From contig MU621101.1 in the NCBI GenBank assembly GCA_025399215.1, positions 1 to 64,000 of the forward strand: a stretch of DNA of 64,000 nucleotides. The letters run 5' to 3'. Positions 41,650-42,908 of this stretch are shown piece after piece. The notes beneath the pieces were generated by a model. It was not told where the DNA came from. It made no database searches and saw nothing but the letters and a program-made list of their open reading frames with translations. Positions within the stretch are counted from its first letter, which is position 1; the number at the start of each line of letters is the position of its first letter. Made by a program: the position numbers and the translations under genes. Origin of the DNA: Globomyces pollinis-pini (taxonomy: Eukaryota > Chytridiomycota > Chytridiomycetes > Rhizophydiales > Globomycetaceae).

Positions 41650-42908
41650 ATGTTACTAACCAAAGAACAAAAAGACCAAGTAAAAAACCCCCAATTCTAA
41701 TCCCAGTTTGACCGAGATGGATACTTGGTCATTCCAGATTTCTTTGATCCAACCAAAATGCGTTCTCAAGCTTCTCAATTACTATCAGATTTCGATATCT
41801 CAAATCATCCTCTCACCAAATTCACCACAGGTGAAAATCAAACCAGTGATGAATACTTTCTCACCTCTGGAGACAAAATCCGTTACTTTTTTGAAGAAGG
41901 TGCTTTATCCAATGATAATGTTTTGTTGACCGATAAGGAAAAGGCTATAAATAAAATTGGTCATGCATTACATGAATTGGATCCAGTATTCAAGGAATTC
42001 TCGACAAGTGAAAAGGTGGTTGATGTCGCTCGTTCTTTGAATTATAAAGATGCTAGAGTTTTACAAAGTATGTTGATTTTTAAGGTATCCAATATATCAT
42101 ATTAATTCTCTAGGTACATGCAGTTACTATTGATTCTCTAGGTACATGCAGTTACTATTGATTCTCTAGGTACTTATAGTTACAATTAATTTTCTAGGTA
42201 CTTATAATTACTGTTGATTCTCTAGGTAAATATAGCTGCTATTGATTTCTAGGTACTCTTTAAAGAAACTAAGTTTTTAAGGTATCCAATCTATAATATT
42301 GATTTTCAAGGTAAACAAAACCAATCGTGACGTTCAAGGTAACAAACATCATTAGATGAATAATATTAGCAACCTGATATTGGTGGTGAAGTAACCGCAC
42401 ATGTCGACAGCACATTTCTATACACCAATCCAACATCAGCAACAGGACTATGGTAAACACTCATCACTCACCTCAGGTTTGCTCTAGAAGACTGCACCCT
42501 TGAAAATGGATGTATGTGGTTCGTCCCTGGATCCCATAAAAGTAATACTGGTCATTAACACATAGAGGTTCCACTTTTGAAACGATTCATTCGTAACAAA
42601 ACTAACGATGGAACATTGAATGTGAAAATGAATGAAGGTCAAGAACCAGACGATTCGGAATACATAGCAGCACCCGTTACCTCAGGTATTTTTAAAACAA
42701 TAACCAATTTGTAGGATCATTAGTATTAATTCATGGTTTGGTCTATCACAAATCTGGTGCCAATCATTCAAAGAAAAGTCGATGGATATATACATTCCAT
42801 ATGATTGATGGGTCTTTGGAATATCCAGCTGATAATTGGTATGATTTGTTGATTTTATTATCTAGGTTATTACCAACTCCTGAAATGCCATTCACCAAAT
42901 TGTTTTAA
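41650..42908 (+). CDS. PHYHD1: Phytanoyl-CoA dioxygenase domain protein (PHYHD1-like)
   Basis: Fe(II)/2-oxoglutarate-dependent oxygenase of the PhyH family, 280 aa after splicing. The N-terminus [20 protein letters not shown] then DFFDP is typical. The iron-binding HxD is in [13 protein letters not shown] and the distal His in [50 protein letters not shown] and a C-terminal Arg-containing strand complete the fold. Six intron positions were placed. The second is the ten-unit array at 42085-42369, between QSMLIFK and QPDIGGEV; the conserved IFKQP motif is recovered only if all 285 nt are removed. The natural substrate is unknown for this subgroup. Confidence 0.93.
42085..42369 (+). other. Ten-unit tandem intron array in the PhyH gene
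   Basis: The 285 nt between the Lys codon of QSMLIFK and the Gln codon of QPDIGG divide exactly into ten GT...AG units. They start at 42085, 42114, 42142, 42170, 42198, 42226, 42253, 42282, 42311 and 42339, and measure 29, 28, 28, 28, 28, 27, 29, 29, 28 and 31 nt. Units 2 and 3 are identical; units 4-6 are clear relatives (GTACTTATA...GATTCTCTAG); units 1 and 8 share GTATCCAAT. Every internal joint is AG|GTA. An in-frame stop appears after eight codons if the array is not removed. Confidence 0.92.

Follow-up and report, generated by a model that had tools for sequence, protein, structure and literature searches.

A predicted head-to-tail array of ten ultrashort introns in a PHYHD1-like gene of the chytrid Globomyces pollinis-pini belongs to a genome-wide class

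The 64-kb stretch of Globomyces pollinis-pini (Chytridiomycota; Rhizophydiales) DNA analyzed here, referred to below as the window, carries a PHYHD1-like gene (PhyH), the best protein match of which is BC833DRAFT_47563 from the same species. No tRNA and no Rfam match at gathering scores were found within the window. At one phase-0 position of the PhyH gene lie 285 nt (42085–42369) that split exactly, with no remainder, into ten GT...AG units of 27–31 nt, as the initial annotation had proposed (Table 1). The exon before the array ends with ATGTTGATTTTTAAG (MLIFK), and the exon after it begins with CAACCTGAT (QPD). All nine internal joints read AG|GT, and the exon ahead of unit 1 also ends in AG (AAG). 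The five other introns of the gene, placed by eye and consistent with the deposited protein, are 24–29 nt long. Further observations of that annotation were confirmed: units 2 and 3 are identical, units 4–6 are 75–82% identical among themselves and 79–82% identical to units 2/3, and all ten units have the length, donor and acceptor of a stand-alone intron, seven of them with a branch motif. Among arrays with flanks read here, the PhyH array is the most repetitive and one of the two longest. What had been missed is that it belongs to a genome-wide class.

Table 1. Exons, introns and array units of the PhyH gene, and other intron arrays of the window and of the VPS24 gene
Feature	Position	Strand	Basis and remarks
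PhyH (PHYHD1-like) exon 1	41650..41679	+	by eye; start same as in deposited P0001
Stand-alone intron, 27 nt, PhyH	41680..41706	+	by eye; agrees with P0001
PhyH exon 2, end QSMLIFK	41707..42084	+	final 12 nt, TTGATTTTTAAG, similar to the 3′ ends of several units
PhyH array unit 1, 29 nt	42085..42113	+	closest relative is unit 8
PhyH array unit 2, 28 nt	42114..42141	+	identical to unit 3
PhyH array unit 3, 28 nt	42142..42169	+	
PhyH array unit 4, 28 nt	42170..42197	+	coding in deposited P0001
PhyH array unit 5, 28 nt	42198..42225	+	
PhyH array unit 6, 27 nt	42226..42252	+	
PhyH array unit 7, 29 nt	42253..42281	+	no clear in-array relative; end TTTTTAAG equals exon 2 end
PhyH array unit 8, 29 nt	42282..42310	+	coding in deposited P0001
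PhyH array unit 9, 28 nt	42311..42338	+	no clear in-array relative
PhyH array unit 10, 31 nt	42339..42369	+	no clear in-array relative
PhyH exon 3, dioxygenase core	42370..42452	+	sequence and alignments
Stand-alone intron, 24 nt, PhyH	42453..42476	+	by eye; agrees with P0001
PhyH exon 4	42477..42541	+	by eye; agrees with P0001
Stand-alone intron, 24 nt, PhyH	42542..42565	+	by eye; agrees with P0001
PhyH exon 5	42566..42685	+	by eye; agrees with P0001
Stand-alone intron, 29 nt, PhyH	42686..42714	+	by eye; agrees with P0001
PhyH exon 6	42715..42838	+	by eye; agrees with P0001
Stand-alone intron, 27 nt, PhyH	42839..42865	+	by eye; agrees with P0001
PhyH exon 7 and stop codon	42866..42908	+	by eye; agrees with P0001
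4-unit array (29, 27, 33, 28 nt), neighbouring DCP1 gene	40657..40773	+	gene finder; Pfam DCP1 match spans array; absent from P0241
3-unit array (32, 25, 25 nt), DCP1	40882..40963	+	gene finder, Pfam
4-unit array (26, 25, 32, 31 nt), MED14-like gene	39193..39306	-	gene finder, joint scan; outside Pfam match
2-unit array, MED14-like gene	39517..39570	-	gene finder; inside Pfam Med14 match
3-unit array (24, 35, 32 nt)	48296..48386	-	gene finder, joint scan
2-unit array, phosphomannomutase	27565..27624	+	gene finder, Pfam
2-unit array (27, 27 nt)	19266..19319	+	gene-finder call only
2-unit array (29, 32 nt)	19365..19425	+	gene-finder call only
2-unit array (37, 30 nt), weakly Omp85-like gene	32614..32680	+	gene finder; outside sub-threshold Pfam match
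Second ten-unit array, VPS24/CHMP3 (L051)	C4:31779-32067	-	joint scan, lenient gene finder

When all ten units are removed, the predicted protein matches Pfam PhyH, and no gap opens at the resulting junction in alignments with human PHYHD1 (PHYHD1 segment SMYIFKQPHFGGEV) and with 14 out of 14 relatives, chosen from 120 matches listed. The initial annotation had argued that only complete removal leaves a coding sequence made up of whole codons. This is incorrect, since 285 = 3 × 95 and the frame stays open in 5 of 1024 subsets of retained units (none, or unit 8 together with one of units 2, 3, 4 and 5). The conclusion of that argument nevertheless stands: a predicted mature mRNA free of all ten units is what comparison with related proteins demands, and homology, not frame by itself, decides the matter. 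A coding reading of the whole array was rejected: it contains many in-frame stops, and the aligned relatives are without any insert.

The deposited model P0001 keeps units 4 and 8, which account for exactly its 19 extra residues. This exact correspondence speaks for alternative splicing in which the two units are retained as a 19-residue coding insert, a reading that we consider highly improbable. Inserts at this junction are absent from all 14 relatives aligned, and the insert would break the conserved core just ahead of the H-x-D motif (H166/D168 of P0001). Moreover, the frame is equally open when unit 8 is retained with unit 2, 3 or 5, and two further array genes (VPS24 and DCP1) also have faulty deposited models. 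Since these models are faulty too, the insert of P0001 looks like a limit of gene prediction.

We characterized the array class in 264 kb of sequence, consisting of the window and 200 kb from C1–C4 (~8.7 kb of it N), out of an 18.5-Mb genome in 459 contigs. A semi-Markov gene finder was trained on the 264 kb; in the strict run it applied the same penalty to every intron. This run returned 41 zero-length internal exons versus 3 exons of all lengths from 1 to 13 nt, the corresponding numbers in the first gene-finder run on the 264 kb being 38 and 8. Single introns called in the strict run numbered 652, with 624 at ≤45 nt and a mode of 28 nt. All units were ≤45 nt at 19 array positions; as the ten-unit VPS24 array, split by a pseudo-exon into 3+2 units, was counted in two parts, these positions represent 18 arrays, of which 10 belong to the window and 8 to the remaining 200 kb. 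One array with a 349-nt pseudo-unit was dropped. A lenient run, set to favour zero-length exons, yielded 30 array positions across the 264 kb, some of them false calls and several with pseudo-units >60 nt, and for this reason counts are quoted from the strict run. Statistics on units, similarity, exon tails and phase were computed on 37 lenient-run arrays with units ≤45 nt, after removal of a false CLK unit and of overlapping loci; leftover false calls dilute the signal in this set. The gene finder sometimes fuses neighbours (DCP1 with PhyH, a Cwc15-like gene with VPS24). With a flat length prior and zero-length exons forbidden it called 1509 introns versus 702, which is overcalling, and this result was not used. 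Two features of the strict calls may be recorded here. Phase 0 is under-represented among arrays (3/19 versus 272/624 single introns, p=0.018), and internal exons of exactly 15 nt were called 7 times, versus ≤3 times for any other length from 1 to 30 nt, perhaps owing to one repetitive gene.

The same class is visible in the spacing of AGGT joints. Both strands of the 264 kb contain five chains of at least five joints spaced 23–38 nt (two of five, one of six and two of ten joints), and no such chain was found in 10 dinucleotide-shuffled sets or in the reversed sequence; one of the five-joint chains looks, as judged by eye, like a coding repeat. Chance is not an explanation for a chain as long as the PhyH array. 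Short chains are not in excess: there are 3 three-joint and 2 four-joint chains versus 2.1 and 0.3 per shuffled set, and the reversed sequence holds 16 and 1, respectively. Support for short arrays therefore comes from the gene finder and from homology. Across the whole genome, a search pattern with three AGGTA joints had 244 hits versus 77 for the reversed pattern, and a looser joint pattern had 407 versus 178, all of these counts including chance hits and overlapping triples.

Homology supports removal of arrays in other genes as well. A Pfam scan covered 20 of the 38 predicted segments listed, and in 14 of the 20 a Pfam match spans an array. The spanned arrays lie in SEY1, Arp1, a CLC channel (3 units), phosphomannomutase (2), an M48 peptidase (2), VPS24 (10), a WD40 protein (4), Dopey (3), an MCM protein (5–7), DCP1 (4 and 3), MED14 (2), SEN1 (4), GPI1 (3) and KAP (2). 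Four segments (Omp85-like, with a match below cut-off, OTU1, a helicase and a cytochrome b5-like protein) have their array outside the match, and for one segment Pfam gave none. Removal of three units in Arp1, of three units within GSQSTGKS in SEY1 and of five units in a CLK kinase yields in each case a gap-free junction with a solved protein. A sixth CLK unit called in the lenient run was rejected, being really the coding exon LIHTDLKP. This exon, which follows the CLK array (C1:20665-20829, minus, L002), starts with GT, and its first 27 nt end in AG; the lenient gene finder was misled here because the exon mimics an intron unit. A two-unit array in the remaining segment, Rpb2, was likewise set aside as a probable false call: it appears in the lenient run only, at a place spanned by a Pfam match, and the protein with both units removed seems to lack residues known from Rpb2.

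The second ten-unit array, in VPS24, has units of 26, 29, 30, 32, 27, 29, 28, 29, 29 and 30 nt and splits the protein at AKE|VVNS. With all ten removed, the junction is gap-free relative to aligned chytrid proteins, and the Pfam Snf7 match spans the array. The deposited Globomyces VPS24 protein starts within the array, MLILRFNFKEFNNI being the end of unit 7 followed by unit 8, and it is without the conserved N-terminal part. The deposited DCP1 model P0241 is without the whole four-unit array and ends one short exon ahead of the three-unit array. Thus, each of the three deposited Globomyces models examined for array genes (P0001, P0122 and P0241) appears faulty at or near an array, with a 19-residue insert in P0001, a lost N-terminus in VPS24 and an early end in DCP1. 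Two observations were made alongside these genes. Protein P0123, the VPS24 of Kappamyces, has ~20 extra residues after MQQQL, near a short Globomyces intron, perhaps a retained intron; and a short minisatellite with telomere-like TAGGGTTA motifs occupies positions 40134–40292 of the window, just ahead of the DCP1 start.

We next consider the signals carried by the units. Most single introns (483 of 567) and most array units (99 of 121) carry the branch motif YTNAY at a distance of 5–24 nt from their 3′ end. Among non-first array units the proportion is 67/84, as compared to 55–58% in shuffled cores. When units were collected by the bare AGGTA pattern, 97 of 108 distinct units from 64 places had YTNAY (58% after shuffling), and a G before the terminal AG was seen in only one of the 108; six further places found by this pattern gave YTNAY in 10/12 units. 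In the PhyH array, units 7, 9 and 10 fail the motif rule.

The arrangement of these signals suggests how the array could be spliced. Each unit would be excised as a separate intron of ~28 nt. AG terminates the preceding exon as well as all units, and each following unit opens with GT, so each removal would re-create a donor at the joint. Each AG|GT joint would then serve first as an acceptor and afterwards as a donor, as in recursive (iterative) splicing via zero-length exons. The units could leave in any order with the mRNA unchanged.

An alternative is that the 285 nt form one intron removed in a single step, which holds a 28-nt minisatellite and in which the internal AG|GT are functionless relics. 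Units 2–6 are indeed a classical tandem repeat (TRF period 28), and size is no bar, as single introns of 44–116 nt exist among the genome calls. However, arrays of unrelated units keep both unit size and branch motif, and idle sequence would lose both; the second ten-unit array shows no significant unit similarity after correction; and zero-length exons far exceed exons of 1–13 nt. The type of donor also argues against a single step. Donors of the GTAAGT/GTATGT/GTGAGT type are found in 7 of 15 long single introns (41–300 nt, a set not checked intron by intron) and in 27 of 567 short ones, and they are absent from the first units of arrays in both the lenient (0/37) and the strict (0/19) set. 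The difference between arrays and long single introns is significant in either set (p=4.8e-5 and p=0.0012, respectively). Because their first donors resemble those of short introns, arrays appear unlike long introns removed in one step, and we judge that alternative improbable. Unit-by-unit removal via the AG|GT joints is favoured and appears likely from these signals. For the stepwise removal suggested in the initial annotation, the donor type thus adds support.

Intron size in this genome deserves a remark of its own. A strict upper limit of ~40 nt was considered and rejected, as the strict run called eight single introns of 44–116 nt. Longer single introns make up a second, rare class in the 264 kb, often with GTAAGT or GTATGT donors and in this unlike the short introns (for example, C1:2883-2945, C3:24851-24907 and C3:8722-8805); such donors are present in 5 of 7 listed introns of this class <130 nt.

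The relationships between units bear on the origin of the arrays. PhyH units 2–6 share 75–100% identity with one another, and unit 1 is 83% identical to unit 8. Between the 1/8 group and the 2–6 group the link is weak (66–74% identity, scores of 5–6, p ~0.01–0.02 for each pair). For units 7, 9 and 10, no clear relative was found within the array. The tail of the preceding exon resembles unit ends as well. Compared with its 12 nt (TTGATTTTTAAG), the end of unit 8 matches at 11 positions, those of units 2, 3, 4, 5 and 7 at 9, those of units 1 and 9 at 8, that of unit 6 at 6 and that of unit 10 at 4; among 567 single introns the best match is 10/12, and 17 introns reach at least 9. Furthermore, the same 17 nt, TTTTTAAG|GTATCCAAT, stand at the exon|unit 1 and at the unit 7|unit 8 borders, and none of the 567 single introns ends in TTTTTAAG. 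Such a recurrence is what a duplication across the exon–intron border would leave.

The resemblance to the exon tail and the kinship of the units support tandem duplication, which we regard as the best-supported origin for seven PhyH units (2–6, 1 and 8). Repeated tandem duplication, one intron being the period, would have enlarged the array, and at least one duplicated copy seems to have carried the exon tail. A duplicated whole intron would be invisible in the protein; because of this, whole-intron duplications could be tolerated and drift apart with their splice signals kept. The tandem duplication put forward in the initial annotation therefore fits units 2–6 and the 1/8 pair, and it does not extend to units 7, 9 and 10; the link between the two groups is weak. 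An origin from the exon tail is not supported as a general rule, as only 4 of 121 unit tests reached p<0.01.

Beyond PhyH, 6 of 75 adjacent and 0 of 89 non-adjacent unit pairs had p<0.01, and related neighbours were seen at 11 of 70 pattern places listed. Clearly related units were found at C12:40657 (the four-unit DCP1 array, C12 being the contig of the window), L014, L019, C2:6657, C37, C60 and C68. At G000:C68:15902-16041, at least five AGGTA-joined units occur with adjacent pairs alike (4/4 listed, p<0.01); this may be a further young array. Given that related neighbours are a minority, most arrays must be old unless a second route also adds units. Such a route could be the repeated insertion of introns into an AG|GT joint, by reverse splicing or break repair at a proto-splice site, with splicing of the resulting array being the same. 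The absence of detectable unit similarity from most arrays fits insertion, as does the rarity of phase 0 in arrays relative to single introns. Against it, units are clearly related in PhyH and several other arrays; a search of the genome with the PhyH array DNA returned only the array itself, with the caveat that single 28-nt relatives may escape such a search; and old duplicates would look unrelated too. We view insertion as a possible though unlikely origin. An error of assembly or sequencing that expanded a single intron is extremely unlikely: the identity of units 2 and 3 means that the copy number could be off by one, but the other PhyH units differ from each other, and arrays of wholly different units are present on many contigs.

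Taken together, the 285 nt are very probably ten complete ultrashort spliceosomal introns arranged head to tail, which would be removed unit by unit and would have multiplied by tandem duplication. These findings suggest that introns can multiply in place without a change in the protein. With less confidence, we lean towards a broader reading in which an intron position behaves as a counted repeat. A ~28-nt intron would be multiplied in place to at least ten copies, all of them obligatory and removed one by one via zero-length exons, and hundreds of genes, by rough extrapolation, would depend on this process. The 8 strict-run arrays in the 200 kb outside the window, when scaled to 18.5 Mb, correspond to roughly several hundred arrays. 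Growth of arrays would be self-promoting, because each AG|GT joint, if this reading is true, is a new site for unequal exchange, and the number of introns per position would be a new evolvable trait, and array length could slow or tune splicing. In this one genome, intron multiplication could be caught at different ages: PhyH units 2 and 3 are still identical, and the VPS24 units have no likeness left. It also offers a natural test of whether the spliceosome can run ten successive splicings via zero-length exons when the introns are close to the minimum size. There is a cost for annotation as well, since gene predictors seem not to write zero-length exons.

Several known systems share some of these properties. 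In long introns of Drosophila, ratchet points act as zero-nucleotide exons in recursive splicing (PMC8605326). They share with the arrays juxtaposed AG|GT, a re-created donor (here predicted) and no exon left in the mRNA; there, however, the pieces lie within long introns (~50 kb in one example), and a cryptic exon is needed at the ratchet point (PMC8605326). The PhyH array has the same AG|GT juxtaposition outside any very long intron: unlike the Drosophila pieces, its units are complete introns of ~28 nt, up to ten in succession, and the whole array measures 285 nt.

Abutting introns are described from fungi, too. In snoRNA host genes of Candida and Debaryomyces, introns with a zero- or one-nucleotide exon between them are spliced in sequence according to RNA-seq (PMC5033589). 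Those hosts are non-coding and have two or three introns, and a nested pathway predominates in C. parapsilosis (PMC5033589). In contrast, arrays of 2–10 units are found here genome-wide in protein-coding genes. The window gave no Rfam match, and the units are too short for snoRNAs as well. Ascomycete stwintrons are nested, one intron interrupting a splice element of another (PMC7138796, PMC8469720); like the arrays, they are complex intervening sequences at one position, with consecutive splicing reactions, which for the arrays are predicted. The PhyH array divides fully into abutting intact GT...AG units, none of them nested.

As to the multiplication of introns, a review names tandem duplication of an AGGT-containing segment as a route of intron gain shown in vivo (PMC3443670). 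This route shares with the arrays AG|GT on both sides and an unchanged coding sequence, but as described there it makes a new intron from duplicated exon sequence (PMC3443670), whereas here existing introns would have been multiplied in place, up to ten. Related neighbours with AGGT borders were found for PhyH units 2–6 and 1/8, and not for units 7, 9 and 10 or for most other arrays. Introner-like elements are a keyword of PMC8469720.

Introners and other dispersed intron families multiply introns as near-identical copies at many loci. A dispersed repeat or introner is not supported as an identity for the PhyH array, which matches only itself in the genome search (short single units may escape); unlike introners, its copies stay at one position. 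As expected for U2-type introns, all ten PhyH units have GT...AG ends and a length typical of this genome, seven with YTNAY.

The initial annotation knew of no intron array of this kind, and the open-licence literature, covered mostly as titles and abstract openings and exclusive of subscription papers and preprints, yielded no description of arrays of complete ultrashort introns in coding genes. Its novelty claim stands to that extent, and it does not reach zero-length exons and recursive splicing, which are known elsewhere.
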